Assembly (NCBI GenBank): GCA_001780985.1
Contig: MFJV01000001.1
Location: forward strand, 308 to 37,465
Direction of reading: 5' to 3'
DNA from: Candidatus Gottesmanbacteria bacterium RIFCSPLOWO2_01_FULL_43_11b
Lineage (GTDB): Bacteria; Patescibacteriota; Microgenomatia; UBA10105; UBA927
DNA length: 37,158 nucleotides
Numbering within the stretch: position 1 is the stretch's first letter; each line of letters starts with the position of its first letter. The notes under the pieces are model-generated. The model was not told where the DNA came from. It searched no databases and was given only the letters and a program-made list of their open reading frames with translations. A program made the position numbers and the translations under genes. Positions 18,733 to 27,834 of this stretch are shown here, in pieces.

Positions 18733-20703
18733 ATGGGCAAATTTAAACTTCAATCAACATTTCAACCTACCGGAGATCAGCCTCAGGCTATAGAAGCTCT
18801 TGTAAAGGGACTAAAGTTAAAATTACCCGAACAGGTGCTCATAGGAGTCACTGGGAGCGGGAAAACGTTTACTATGGCAAATGTTATCGCAAACGTTCAA
18901 AGACCTACATTGATTATTTCCCACAATAAAACACTTGCAGCACAGCTTTACCAGGAATTTAGGGATTTCTTTCCCAATAACGCGGTAAGCTACTTCGTTT
19001 CTTACTACGATTACTACCAACCGGAAGCATACATTCCGCAAACCGATACATACATAGAAAAAGAAACGGAAATTAACGAGGAGATAGATAAACTCCGGCT
19101 TGCCGCAACAACAAACCTTTTAACTCGAAAGGATACGATTATCGTAGCTTCAGTTTCGTGTATATATAACATTGGCTCTCCCAAGGAATACGGTCATTTT
19201 GTGCTTGAACTTCGTCCGGGAACAAAAGTAACCCGGGAAAGTATTTTTGATCGTTTGGTTGATCTTCAATACAGCAGAAGCGATTATGGTTTTCACCGGG
19301 GTACATTTCGTGTTCGGGGCGATACAATAGACCTTTTTCCGGCCTATGAAGATTCTGCAATCCGAATTGTCATGGGCAGTAGCGGAGTTATTTCACTTGA
19401 TCGAAGAGATCCGTTAACCGGTAAAAAAATAGAAGATCTTCCTGCCACAGTCATTTACCCGGCAAAACACTATATGACCGATCCGAGAATGTATAAGGAT
19501 GTATTTGCTCAAATACGGCAAGATATGGAAGAACGAGTCAAATATTTTACGAAAAATAAAAAATTTATTGAGGCACAGCGTATCCGGGAACGCGTTACCT
19601 ATGATCTGGAGATGATCCAGGAAGTGGGATTTGTTAACGGTATAGAAAATTACAGCCGGTACTTTGACGGGAGAAAGCCCGGAGAGCCTCCGTATACACT
19701 CCTTGACTATTTTGAAGAAGCAGCAGGCCGTGACTATTTATTGTTTATCGATGAATCACATATGACGGTGCCTCAGATTCGTGGCATGTACCATGGCGAC
19801 AGAAGCCGAAAGCAAACGCTTATTGATTACGGATTCCGTCTCCCTGCTGCAATTGACAACAGACCTCTTCGGATTGAGGAATTTCTCCGTCGTATGCCGC
19901 AAACCGTTTACGTTTCCGCCACACCTAGTGAATGGGAGGTAAGTCGGGCAGAGACGGTGGAGCAGTTGATCCGACCAACTGGCTTAGTTGATCCGGCAAT
20001 TGATGTTCGCCCTAGTTCCGGCCAAATCGAAGATCTCATCTCTGAAATTCAAAAAAGAGTAGTAAAAAAAGAACGGGTACTTGTTACGACACTGACGAAG
20101 CGTACGGCAGAGGATTTATCTAAATTCCTTAAAGACCGCGGTATTAATGTTCACTATTTACACTCAGACATCATCACTCTTGAACGAAGTGATATTTTGG
20201 CGGATTTACGGGGCGGAGTTTACGACGTTATTGTAGGGATCAATTTACTTCGGGAAGGACTGGATCTGCCGGAAGTATCGCTTGTGGCAGTTCTCGATGC
20301 GGATAAAGAAGGATTTCTGAGAAGCCGTGTGAGTCTTATTCAAACCATGGGAAGAGCTGCACGGCACGTTGCCGGACAGGTGATTCTTTATGCCGATACA
20401 ATGACAGGATCGATGAGAGAGGCAATCGAAGAAGTGACAAGGAGAAGGAATATTCAGCTTGAATACAATAAAAAACACGGCGTTACTCCCAAAAGTATTT
20501 CAAAGCCAATTCGATCACGATTGGTTGAAAAGGTAGAAGAGATAAAAGAAGAAATGAAGGTAGAATCCATGACGCCAATGGATAAAAAGAAAGCCATTGT
20601 TCGCTATACCAAGCTTCTGAGAGAATCGTCACGCGATCTCGATTTCGAATCCGCCGCCCGCTTCCGAGATCTTCTCACTCAACTTCAAGGAGACTCCTCG
20701 TAG
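18733..20703 (+). CDS. uvrB: excinuclease ABC subunit B
   Basis: FKLQSTFQPTGDQPQAIEALV, GVTGSGKTFTMANVI, YYDYYQPEAYIP, GINLLREGLDLPEVSLVAVLDADKEGFLRS; start 18733 preferred. Confidence 0.97.
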   Translation: MGKFKLQSTFQPTGDQPQAIEALVKGLKLKLPEQVLIGVTGSGKTFTMANVIANVQRPTLIISHNKTLAAQLYQEFRDFFPNNAVSYFVSYYDYYQPEAYIPQTDTYIEKETEINEEIDKLRLAATTNLLTRKDTIIVASVSCIYNIGSPKEYGHFVLELRPGTKVTRESIFDRLVDLQYSRSDYGFHRGTFRVRGDTIDLFPAYEDSAIRIVMGSSGVISLDRRDPLTGKKIEDLPATVIYPAKHYMTDPRMYKDVFAQIRQDMEERVKYFTKNKKFIEAQRIRERVTYDLEMIQEVGFVNGIENYSRYFDGRKPGEPPYTLLDYFEEAAGRDYLLFIDESHMTVPQIRGMYHGDRSRKQTLIDYGFRLPAAIDNRPLRIEEFLRRMPQTVYVSATPSEWEVSRAETVEQLIRPTGLVDPAIDVRPSSGQIEDLISEIQKRVVKKERVLVTTLTKRTAEDLSKFLKDRGINVHYLHSDIITLERSDILADLRGGVYDVIVGINLLREGLDLPEVSLVAVLDADKEGFLRSRVSLIQTMGRAARHVAGQVILYADTMTGSMREAIEEVTRRRNIQLEYNKKHGVTPKSISKPIRSRLVEKVEEIKEEMKVESMTPMDKKKAIVRYTKLLRESSRDLDFESAARFRDLLTQLQGDSS

Positions 20704-20704
20704 G
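20683..20704 (+). repeat. palindromic repeat copy a (CTTCAAGGAGACTCCTCGTAGG), 3' end of uvrB
   Basis: Exact reverse complement of copy b; supplies the last uvrB codons and the TAG stop. Confidence 0.85.
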
Positions 20705-23661: not shown

Positions 23662-25443
23662 ATGATCAAGAGAATTATTTTTTCTCTGTTTATCTTCCTG
23701 TTTTTACTCACGTCAAAAATATATGCTGCAGGGGAATTTCAGGCTGACTATAACGTCAATTACGCAATTTCACCAATTGGTACGACGATCGTAACCCAAA
23801 ATGTAACTCTCACCAATAAACTCACGAATCTCTATCCCAAGCGGTACAACATAACCATTGATAGCGACAAAATTAAAAACGTCATAGCTACTGACGAAGT
23901 CGGAGCAATTACTCCCACAATTGCCTTAAAAGACGGGAAAACAGAAATTGGGATTGACTTTAATACCCAAAATGCCGGTGTTGGGAAAAAAACCCTGTTT
24001 ACGCTTCGATATGAACATGGCGATGTTGCCCACAAAAACGGTCGCATATGGGAAATTCTCATTCCGGGAGTTGAAAATGATCAGGATCTGGGAAATTACA
24101 CGACAACACTCTCTGTTCCATCATCGTTTGGACCTGTTGCGTACCTTAATCCCAGACCCAATCACGGAGCCTGGACAAAAGAGCAGATGGTGCAGGGAGG
24201 AATTGTCGCAGCGTACGGGGATGAACAGGTATTTGCGCTCACTCTCTCGTACTATTTAGAAAATAACTCTGTTGCAAGTAACGATCTGGAAGTAGCCTTA
24301 CCACCTGATACTGCCTTCCAATCAGTCACAATTGATTCAATTTCCCCTCAACCCAAAACAGTCATTCGCGATGCAGACGGAAACTGGCTCGCACGCTATA
24401 ACGTAAATCCGGGGCAAAAGCTCGAAATAACGGCAAATCTTACAGTTCGAATCTACCTTACTCCTAAAAAAGATTGGGTTGCTGAGTCAATTAACCCGGA
24501 TGACTACCTTTCGCCTTCTCGCTATTGGGAGGTTTATGATGCAAGAATCACAAAACTTGCACAAACCTATCGTACTCCACGCCAGATTTATGATTACGTC
24601 GTTACCTCTCTCTCTTATGACTATCAACGTGTCACACAAAATCCCACAAGACTCGGTGCGGTCGGGGTTTTGGTAAATCCAAAATCGGCAATTTGCATGG
24701 AATTTACTGATTTATTTATCGCAATTGCCCGTGCTGCAGGTATTCCTGCCCGGGAAGTAGTCGGATATGCCCATACGACCAATAGCAAATTACGGCCTCT
24801 TTCCCTTGTTTCCGATGTCTTACATGCATGGCCGGAATATTACGACAGCGACAGAAATATCTGGGTTCCTGTGGATCCCACGTGGGCAAATACAACCGGG
24901 GGAGTTGACTATTTTAATACGCTTGATTTTAACCATATTGTATTTGCGATCCACGGAAAATCGAGTGAACTGCCGTACCCTGCAGGATTTTACCGAAATG
25001 CAGCAAAATCAGGGAAAGATGTTCAAGTTAGTTTTGTCGAAACGAAACCAGACGAGATAACGGCAGGACCGCTGACTATAACAATTGACTTTCCTGATAA
25101 AGTAACCGGAGGGATCCGCTCAGCAGGTCATGTTTATGTAAAAAATGAAAGCGGTAATAGTATTTCCCAAGCCAATATTTCCGTTGAATCGAAAGTAGGT
25201 AATATTAATCTATCCAAAGTTGAAAAGAACATTCCTCCTTATGCGTCAGTTGATATTCCTATAGAAATTAAAACAACGTCATTTAGCCTCATGGAAGAGG
25301 GAAGATTAATTGTGAATGTTGATGGGCAAATAGAAACACACTCATTTATTGTCCGACCTATATATTGGATATTTCTTCCCTATGTTGCAGTCGTTGCCGG
25401 TGGTATGATACTTTTCGTCCTATGGAAGTATCTACGGCGCTAA
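23662..25443 (+). CDS. secreted/membrane-anchored transglutaminase-like domain protein
   Basis: N-terminal signal peptide; Cys motif AICMEFTDLFIAIARAAGIPAREVVGY and His/Asp HAWPEYYDSDRNIWVPVDPTW; C-terminal TM helix. Confidence 0.85.
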   Translation: MIKRIIFSLFIFLFLLTSKIYAAGEFQADYNVNYAISPIGTTIVTQNVTLTNKLTNLYPKRYNITIDSDKIKNVIATDEVGAITPTIALKDGKTEIGIDFNTQNAGVGKKTLFTLRYEHGDVAHKNGRIWEILIPGVENDQDLGNYTTTLSVPSSFGPVAYLNPRPNHGAWTKEQMVQGGIVAAYGDEQVFALTLSYYLENNSVASNDLEVALPPDTAFQSVTIDSISPQPKTVIRDADGNWLARYNVNPGQKLEITANLTVRIYLTPKKDWVAESINPDDYLSPSRYWEVYDARITKLAQTYRTPRQIYDYVVTSLSYDYQRVTQNPTRLGAVGVLVNPKSAICMEFTDLFIAIARAAGIPAREVVGYAHTTNSKLRPLSLVSDVLHAWPEYYDSDRNIWVPVDPTWANTTGGVDYFNTLDFNHIVFAIHGKSSELPYPAGFYRNAAKSGKDVQVSFVETKPDEITAGPLTITIDFPDKVTGGIRSAGHVYVKNESGNSISQANISVESKVGNINLSKVEKNIPPYASVDIPIEIKTTSFSLMEEGRLIVNVDGQIETHSFIVRPIYWIFLPYVAVVAGGMILFVLWKYLRR

Positions 25444-26678
25444 CTTCATTACCCCACCAACCAGGTGTTTACTTGTTTCGGGATAAAAGTAATCACGTTA
25501 TTTACGTTGGGAAAGCAATTGATCTATTCCGGAGGGTTAAAAGTTACGTACACACTCCACTTTTTGAACATATAGCAGATATTCAAACAATTGAAACAAC
25601 AAGTGAATTTGATGCCCTGCTTCTTGAAGCAAAACTCATCAGAGAATTTAAACCGAAGTTTAATGTAATAACAAAAGACGATAAATCCCCTCTTTTTATC
25701 GTCTTGACACTTTCTCAACCACTCCCGAGAGTGCTGTTTGCACGAAAGACTCAGCTTCGTGCCTTAGTTACAAAAAGAGGGGATAAAGTATTTGGCCCGT
25801 TTCAATCAGCCAAAATGACTTATTCGCTCATGCAGCACATTCGGAACGTTATCCCATTTTGTCAACAGAAAAGAAGAGATGGGAAACCGTGTTTTTATAC
25901 ACACCTTGGTCTTTGTTCACCATGCCCTTCAGTATTATCGAAAAACCCAAATGCGAAAGGGAAACATATCTACCGCCGGAATATGATTCGAATAAAAAAT
26001 ATTTTAAACGGAAAAGCTACATTCGTACTTTCTCAGATGGAAAAAGAAATGCAAAGTCGTGCGAAAGCCATGCGTTTTGAACAAGCACAAGTATTAAGAA
26101 ATCAAATTGCATCGTTTTATGAACTTCTCAAACGGAAATATGACCCTTCGGTATATCTCCACGATGACGGGGCGCAGGATATTTACAGGGAACAAATAGA
26201 GGATCTTGCAAATATTCTAAACTTATCAAACCTGCGCCGTATTGAGGCAATTGATATATCGAATATTTCAGGGGGTTTTGCTACAGGATCGCTCGTTGTT
26301 CTTACAGATGGACGTACGGACAAAGACTGGTATAGACGGTTTCGCATACGTACAGTACGAGGTTCTAACGACACTGCAATGATAACTGAAGTCGTCAGAA
26401 GACGCTTTAAACACGACGATTGGCCAAAACCGGATCTTTTGGTTATTGACGGGGGAAAAGGGCAGGTAAGGGCAGCAGCAGGCGCACCTGTGCCCGTTAT
26501 AGGGCTTGCCAAACGACTGGAGGAAATAATCGTTCCGACTGACATAGGATTTAAAGTACACAGACTTTCCCTTTCCCGGCCGGCAATTCACCTCCTGCAA
26601 AGAATTCGCGACGAAGCCCACCGCTTTGCTCTCCGCTATCACCGCCACCTACGAGGAGTCTCCTTGAAGTCATTCTAG
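25422..26678 (+). CDS. uvrC: excinuclease ABC subunit C, short form without C-terminal HhH region
   Basis: GIY-YIG PGVYLFRDKSNHVIYVGKA; UVR-like helix; RNase H-like AIDISNISGG..PDLLVIDGGKGQ..RDEAHRFALRYHRHLR; ends LRGVSLKSF*. Confidence 0.92.
   Translation: MEVSTALTSLPHQPGVYLFRDKSNHVIYVGKAIDLFRRVKSYVHTPLFEHIADIQTIETTSEFDALLLEAKLIREFKPKFNVITKDDKSPLFIVLTLSQPLPRVLFARKTQLRALVTKRGDKVFGPFQSAKMTYSLMQHIRNVIPFCQQKRRDGKPCFYTHLGLCSPCPSVLSKNPNAKGKHIYRRNMIRIKNILNGKATFVLSQMEKEMQSRAKAMRFEQAQVLRNQIASFYELLKRKYDPSVYLHDDGAQDIYREQIEDLANILNLSNLRRIEAIDISNISGGFATGSLVVLTDGRTDKDWYRRFRIRTVRGSNDTAMITEVVRRRFKHDDWPKPDLLVIDGGKGQVRAAAGAPVPVIGLAKRLEEIIVPTDIGFKVHRLSLSRPAIHLLQRIRDEAHRFALRYHRHLRGVSLKSF
26648..26669 (-). repeat. 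palindromic repeat copy b (CCTACGAGGAGTCTCCTTGAAG), 3' end of uvrC and adjacent to RAYT stop
   Basis: 22/22 identity to the reverse complement of copy a. Confidence 0.85.
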
Positions 26679-26862
26679 ATCTAAAGTAACTTCGGTTATG
26701 GGCTTTATGTCATCAAAATTACCTTGCTCCACGAAGGACCGATAGTTCATATGAGGATTTTTATGAAAAAAATAACTTAGAATACTCTCCGTCGACACCC
26801 ACTCCTGAGAAAACCGGTGTAGGTAATTGCCATATGAAGAATAACCATATTCATCTAACATT

Positions 26863-26880
26863 CGAGGAGTCTCCTTGAAG
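26863..26880 (-). repeat. palindromic repeat copy c, inside RAYT coding sequence
   Basis: CGAGGAGTCTCCTTGAAG, 18-bp identity with copy b; encodes PFKETPRM in RAYT. Confidence 0.8.
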
Positions 26881-27161
26881 GGGGATAACGATATAGGATT
26901 ACGGTGGATATATTTGGAAAGATAGATAAATTGGTTTTCATCTGTAACTCGTACTCCCTTATATGTTCCTTGAAAAAGTGGACCGATTCTTCGGTAATGG
27001 GAGTTAAAATACCTGACGTATTTCGTGGCAAGTGATCGCATGAAATGATCGATTCCATGATCAGAATTCTGTTTCACAAAGAGATGAAAATGGTTTGGCA
27101 TTAGACAGTAACACAGTAGAGTAATCTCACCATTATAGTTTTTGAGTTTTCGTGATGGTGG

Positions 27162-27183
27162 CTTCAAGGAGTCTCCTTGTAGG
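27162..27183 (+). repeat. palindromic repeat copy d, inside RAYT coding sequence
   Basis: CTTCAAGGAGTCTCCTTGTAGG; encodes PLQGDSLK on the RAYT strand. Confidence 0.85.
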
Positions 27184-27353
27184 GGTTCTGCAGTTAAATA
27201 GATTTCGAGGTAGGACAAAAACGTTTTATAATCACGGTCCTCCTGAAAAATTGTTCTTTTATCCACACCGCGATTATAAATATGATAGTAACCACCAGGG
27301 TCATACTCCTTTAGAGCATTTTTAGCAGGCATTAACTTAGTATACACCTTTAT

Positions 27354-27375
27354 CTTCAAGGAGTCTCCTCGTAGG
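27354..27375 (+). repeat. palindromic repeat copy e, upstream flank of RAYT
   Basis: CTTCAAGGAGTCTCCTCGTAGG; inverted relative to copy b on the other flank. Confidence 0.85.
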
Positions 27376-27429
27376 TATAGCGATTGTTTGCCTTTCCACC
27401 CTCCATTTGTTACCATCGTTTTACCTAAC

Positions 27430-27834
27430 ATGAAGTATTTACTTCGAGTTTACCTTTTCAACGTATTTGCGCTCTGGTTAACGAGTCAACTACTTCCAAG
27501 CTTAGTCATTTTGGGAGGTTGGCAGGTTATTATGACCGCCGGTATATTTTTGAGCCTTCTTATGCTCCTGGTAGCTCCGGTTTTGAAAATACTCTTTATT
27601 CCTATAAATCTCCTCACGTTTGGGCTTTTTTCGTGGTTAATTAATGTTGCAGTCGTCTTTTTACTTACTTTTGTTTTCCCCAGCGTCACCATACGGCCTT
27701 TTACGTATGAAGGGGCGACATTTTCAGGTTTTGTTATTCCATCAGTTGAGGTAACGTACCTTGCTTCTCTTATTATTACATCGCTTACTATAACGCTTAT
27801 TACAAATATCCTCCATTCGGTAAGTGAGGGTTAA
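27430..27834 (+). CDS. phage holin family 4 (DUF360-like) membrane protein
   Basis: Four hydrophobic segments with APVLKILFIPINLLTFGLFSWLINV, typical of this family. Confidence 0.75.
   Translation: MKYLLRVYLFNVFALWLTSQLLPSLVILGGWQVIMTAGIFLSLLMLLVAPVLKILFIPINLLTFGLFSWLINVAVVFLLTFVFPSVTIRPFTYEGATFSGFVIPSVEVTYLASLIITSLTITLITNILHSVSEG

Follow-up and report, generated by a model that had tools for sequence, protein, structure and literature searches.

The gene for a RAYT/TnpA-REP-like Y1 transposase in the window (the whole stretch of 37,158 nucleotides analyzed here) belongs to a RAYT lineage with a recurrent layout of four palindromes: one upstream of the gene (UP), two within the reading frame (sites d and c) and one downstream (DN). 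Within any one gene, the copies form a mutually cognate set and have undergone joint changes on many occasions, and the two internal sites correspond, in a structural model, to loops that flank the HuH-Tyr core. With a probability of about 55%, we consider the internal palindromes to be ancestral in-frame copies that are kept cognate by templated patch replacement and reside in two tolerant loops.

The transposase gene and its palindromes

The gene is located on the minus strand between uvrC and a small ORF resembling membrane proteins (Table 1). The encoded protein matches the Y1 domain profile (PF01797, E=6.5e-9) and scores 37 bits against NF047646 (REP_Tyr_transpos), below the cut-off of 80; all 36 of its 36 aligned homologs match this family. 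The start codon is M34 of the listed 253-aa ORF (ATG at 27332, MPAKN...), where the homologs also begin, and the first 33 residues of that ORF probably represent an untranslated extension; copy e therefore flanks the gene on its 5' side and does not count as a third copy within the reading frame. In the alignment of the homologs, N80, H81 and H83 are invariant, and F82 is present in at least 90%; Y141 is the putative catalytic tyrosine, as assigned by family. Searching the PDB by sequence yields only weak IS200-type matches; the best fold match identified by Foldseek is 4er8, a TnpA-REP with a REP hairpin (E=5e-6, TMt 0.63). In the AlphaFold model (mean pLDDT 86.7), a helix (32-46) and a strand (70-77) enclose the low-confidence coil (residues 47-69, pLDDT about 52) into which site d falls; site c belongs to the coil following the Tyr helix. 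This agrees with the surface loops that the preliminary description had considered for the internal copies. Both HuH (80-83) and Tyr (141) are located between the two sites, which lie outside the 80-141 interval.

The genome, a single contig of 1.02 Mb, is that of a Microgenomates-type CPR bacterium, and the nearest RAYT relatives with a named source are likewise mostly those of Microgenomates CPR (Beckwith-, Collier-, Levy-, Davies-, Woese-, Gottesmanbacteria and others). The same genome encodes a second RAYT-like protein (L039, G000:C1:65219-65848, 34% identity), for which cognate palindromes are not detectable.

Table 1. Transposase locus and palindrome copies in the window
Feature	Position	Strand	Remarks
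RAYT/TnpA-REP-like Y1 transposase gene	26670..27332	-	220 aa; ORF extendable to ATG at 27431
HuH motif NHFH, residues 80-83	27084..27095	-	between sites d and c
Putative catalytic tyrosine Y141 of YIHRNP	26910..26912	-	Y141 and H143 invariant in homologs
uvrC ORF	25365..26678	+	runs toward the transposase gene and terminates in palindrome b; TIGR00194 297.6 bits
Palindrome copy a	20683..20704	+	uvrB 3' end; supplies last codons and TAG stop (LQGDSS*)
Palindrome copy b (DN), 3' flank	26648..26669	+	also encodes UvrC C-terminus (LRGVSLKSF*)
Palindrome copy c, in-frame site c	26859..26880	+	residues 151-158, PFKETPRM; one end degenerate
Palindrome copy d, in-frame site d	27162..27183	-	residues 50-57, PLQGDSLK; CTTCAAGGAGTCTCCTTGTAGG on +
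Palindrome copy e (UP), 5' flank	27354..27375	-	centre about 32 nt ahead of start codon

The 22-nt palindrome (consensus CTTCAAGGAGWCTCCTYGTAGG) is present in four copies (b, c, d and e) within a 728-bp stretch. Sites within 2 mismatches of AAGGAGWCTCCTT number 5 in the window, against 0.62 expected, and none of 100 shuffles reaches 5. Flanks b and e form an inverted pair, with 23-nt arms that are 96% complementary. The strands of the palindrome start with CTTC or CCTAC; the 5' GT[AG]G foot is absent, and GTAGG is found only at the 3' end. The hairpin is weak (6 bp and a 3-nt loop), and an Rfam search of positions 26400-27500 returned no match. The preliminary description assigned the internal copies to the transposase's own repeat family, placed them in frame within the ORF, and noted that b and c share one orientation and d and e the other; all this is confirmed. 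For copy c, 26863-26880 is the better-conserved part, and the whole 22-nt consensus begins at 26859.

The convergent uvrC ORF ends (HRHLRGVSLKSF*) in or just past palindrome b (26648-26678), directly after the RNase H-like domain, and the usual C-terminal helix-hairpin-helix region of UvrC is absent. Perhaps this region was lost at the junction with the RAYT gene.

Internal copies and their joint change in homologs

Homologs were collected first from 59 related genomes and then by a class-wide search of 374 genomes, which added the close clade. Already in the first set, RAYT genes commonly have a matching palindrome upstream and downstream, each gene with its own sequence. The internal repeats that the preliminary description proposed to look for in other RAYTs of related genomes are indeed found: all 22 genes at 51% identity or higher (window included) contain at least one internal in-frame copy, and 16 of the 22 contain both, counts that take in two degenerate copies. 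The general palindrome form of this clade is CCTNCRAGGNNNNNCCTYGNAGG, with a variable centre: AGACT in the window, AGAGT (G021, G240), ACCAT (G228, G314), ATTAT (G192), CCAGG (G057, G240, G314), ACTGT (G314, G192, G240) or TTACA (G309). The 18 close genes scored, the window gene among them, all read site d in a single frame, giving xLQGxSLKx and variants; site c is read in one of two frames. The scan also produced spurious rows with 2-3 mismatches (L209 aa 66, L040 aa 56, L239 aa 216), and L213 is absent from the frame-scored set, yet both of its sites were found in a separate survey, with site d at the same position and in the same frame.

In the merged and deduplicated set of 189 distinct genes, a cognate flanking pair is detected in 93, and 41 of these 93 also carry internal cognate copies, all 50 of which are located at residues 54-69 or 151-159; scanning with the flanks of other genes as a control gave 1 hit in 539. 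Among genes with a flanking pair, an internal copy is present in 15/15 at 51% identity or higher and in only 18/69 under 45%. Distant RAYTs often lack internal copies, and these copies were therefore gained or lost.

Several other features of these genomes are worth mentioning. The distant homolog L063 (G035) contains a longer, gapped palindrome in the site c region that weakly resembles its flank. Some of these small genomes (G044, G036, G010, G006) encode 10-18 RAYT homologs each. In the genome G246 (L213, L235, L239, L240, L244, L255), the general palindrome form occurs 47 times, with many different centres, alongside at least four RAYT genes, which makes this a good genome for assigning palindrome families to individual transposases.

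The internal copies follow their own flanks closely. At all five variable central bases, 34 of the 36 scored internal copies are identical to the flank of the same gene, the two exceptions being the degenerate d copy of L208 and the spurious scan hit in L239. The match to the flanks of other genes averages 2.36/5, and the observed sum was reached in 0 of 5000 permutations, a test that ignores relatedness; among close relatives, common descent accounts for part of the central match. A count of changes on a tree does take relatedness into account, and an IQ-TREE tree built without the loop columns requires at least 13 changes of the centre. This joint change suggests that short patches were rewritten and not simply inserted.

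The peptide varies along with the palindrome (LQGDSLK, LQGESLK, LRGESSK, LQGQALQ, LQGLSLK). The preliminary description had reasoned that homologs with the same peptides and unrelated nucleotides would point to ordinary conserved residues; the opposite is seen, i.e., the cognate palindrome is kept and the peptide changes. A merely coincidental palindrome in conserved loops, for which nothing but the shortness of the repeat speaks, can thus be practically dismissed: palindromicity and cognacy persist as the peptide changes, and the shuffle, permutation and swapped-flank nulls agree.

A more serious alternative is that the internal copies are functional sites at which the transposase would bind or nick the gene that encodes it, or from which hairpins would arise in the transcript, limiting expression or copying parts of the gene, with selection keeping all four palindromes cognate. 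The presence of internal copies in 22/22 closest genes fits this explanation, and so does the frequent orientation in which UP equals d and c equals DN, inverted (e.g., in G228, the centre is ACCAT in UP and d and ATGGT in c and DN). The same applies to G057, where four of the six genome copies are retained in the RAYT gene and the remaining two lie within about 7 kb. However, the orientation rule is not absolute, many distant RAYTs lack internal copies, and palindrome-for-palindrome switching also occurs in radA (see below), where such a function is unexpected. Moreover, folding of the mRNA around the window copies is unremarkable, with z-scores of -1.3, -1.0, +0.9 and -0.3 for 91-nt stretches and local hairpins of 6 bp or shorter, which lends no support to the autoregulatory mRNA hairpin proposed in the preliminary description; one homolog, L207, folds more strongly at site d (z -2.9). 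Regulation via DNA binding would be compatible with the folding result. On balance, functional sites are a possible but doubtful explanation.

Palindromes in other genes and the proposed patch replacement

The genome contains 16 copies of the palindrome, 4 of them at the RAYT locus, and none of the reversed control pattern. Six of the 12 copies outside the locus are in frame within ORFs, namely, those for dnaE, pheT, miaA, a ComEA-like SLBB/HHH protein, a glycosyltransferase and a GSDH-type dehydrogenase, where the names rest on Pfam (for pheT, on its B3/4 domain only). Three more form the end of an ORF together with its stop codon: uvrB, in which Pfam finds UvrB domains, and two ORFs that we presume, from reading, to be peptidase-like and membrane-protein-like. 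Two copies lie between genes or 5' of an ORF. This placement covers 11 of the 12 copies, the other being at 984448. The presence of palindromes in uvrB, uvrC, dnaE and radA (the latter in G314 and G240) is reminiscent of the preference for DNA repair and replication genes that has been reported for intragenic REPs.

Comparison with relatives is informative at four loci, for two of which only other genera are available. In dnaE of the window genome, an exact palindrome is found where 20 relatives have TEPETKRLLDVA-like codons (TEEPTRRLLEVA in the window genome), the length remaining constant (net 0 nt), and in one relative, 15 of the 22 bases match the palindrome in register at that site. In G021, ychF has 3 nt fewer than its counterparts in five congeners, and pheT of the window genome has 30 residues between anchors, compared to 31-35 in 18 measurable relatives. 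In radA, G314 and G240 have different palindromes (centres ACCAT and ACTGT) at one site, and each palindrome matches a RAYT encoded in the same genome; the net gain is 6 nt, and three congeners (G057, G192, G228) have this site without a palindrome. The +21 or +24 nt expected of an insertion is seen at none of the four loci. These lengths are suggestive of replacement of resident bases by the palindrome instead of an addition of about 23 nt, although insertion followed by a near-equal deletion could be an alternative.

The same data bear on the possibility that palindromes were simply inserted repeatedly near the RAYT gene, the survivors being in-frame events in two loops, which is akin to the self-insertion tolerated by the protein that was originally considered. 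The location of both sites in loops and the different frames of site c in different genes agree with this possibility, and intragenic REP insertions (PMC3733652) and in-frame REPs in tnpAREP genes (PMC6006769) are known. Nevertheless, it appears too simple and, overall, unlikely: the same two sites recur, site d is in one frame in 18/18 close genes scored, none of the comparable loci has gained or lost a net +21/24 nt as insertion would predict, and independent events fail to explain why internal and flanking copies switched jointly at least 13 times.

Patch replacement is favored over insertion by the length-neutral changes together with the joint replacement of copies, and is testable in a defined gene. 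Under this scenario, the transposase would make or expose a palindrome as a short patch of single-stranded DNA, which would anneal to other single strands that match it in part, existing palindromes being the best targets, and the annealed patch would be copied or ligated in, overwriting the resident bases, much like a short oligonucleotide in recombineering or a short gene-conversion tract. Because such a patch overwrites and does not insert, the reading frame would tend to survive, which could explain why many copies are intragenic. In the transposase gene, selection would spare copies at the two tolerant loops only, and these would be refreshed at each change of the family palindrome, since the nearest targets are always those in the gene for the enzyme itself. 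Ancestral copies combined with patch replacement would thus account for why the sites and the frame of d are fixed, why the copies switch jointly and why so many of them are intragenic. Against this scenario speak the small number of comparable loci, the weakness of the window's hairpin, the frequent absence of internal copies from distant RAYTs and the share of the central match that close relatives owe to descent. The transposase gene would then be its own record of past palindrome switches. A title by Higgins et al. from 1988 reportedly already asks whether gene conversion is a route of REP evolution.

We infer that the replacement is performed by the transposase itself, on the grounds of the association, the local clustering in G057 and the action of IS200/IS605 enzymes on single-stranded DNA, which is established at replication forks (PMC6006769). 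The sequences are compatible with the transposase acting on its own gene. Because the variable centre of the palindrome determines which residues stand in the middle of loop d (LQG-x-S/A-L), one could further speculate, at long odds, that this loop is part of the recognition surface, such that a palindrome change alters enzyme and target in one step; if so, specificity would be written into both at once.

Comparison with known systems

The window gene shares with RAYT/TnpA-REP and REPtrons (IS200/IS605-related Y1 transposases; PMC2817692, PMC8266576) the Y1_Tnp domain, the HuH and Y motifs, the fold closest to 4er8, inverted flanking palindromes and coevolution of the palindrome with the transposase. 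It differs in falling below the NCBIfam RAYT cut-off and in its palindrome, which has no canonical 5' GTAG foot, is low-copy and mostly intragenic, and recurs in frame at two fixed sites of the gene. REPs are extragenic and have a high copy number, in contrast to the 16 copies found here, of which, outside the locus, 6/12 are in ORFs and 3/12 at ORF ends. REPINs (PMC3116915) are likewise short palindromic repeats thought to depend on RAYTs, but are doublets of two REPs, whereas the dispersed copies here are single palindromes.

Intragenic REPs, including those in uvr genes and dnaE, have been described as insertions, and, like these and the Rickettsia palindromic elements (PMC3733652), the present palindromes are short, occur in frame in housekeeping genes and can provide stop codons with their ends. 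Unlike in the Rickettsia elements, the host protein is not lengthened by an insertion (dnaE 0 nt, ychF -3 nt, pheT shorter, radA +6 nt), and, unlike in both, the genome has a RAYT whose gene contains copies of this very palindrome.

The closest parallel is tnpAREP subclass 2.4, abundant in Cyanobacteria and Bacteroidetes, for which Quentin et al. (2018, PMC6006769) describe in-frame REPs within the transposase gene, generally between HuH and Y. The unbroken frame and the variable peripheral regions are shared; here, the copies are located before HuH and after Y (residues 50-57 and 151-158, outside 80-141), and in Microgenomates. The main text passages of that paper make no mention of concerted switching of internal and flanking copies, and a literature search of incomplete coverage found nothing on RAYTs in Microgenomates. 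Thus, in-frame REPs inside RAYT genes are already known from subclass 2.4, and, as far as the incompletely covered literature, supplements aside, shows, the new features are the two fixed sites outside HuH-Y, the Microgenomates clade, the joint switching and the length-neutral replacement.
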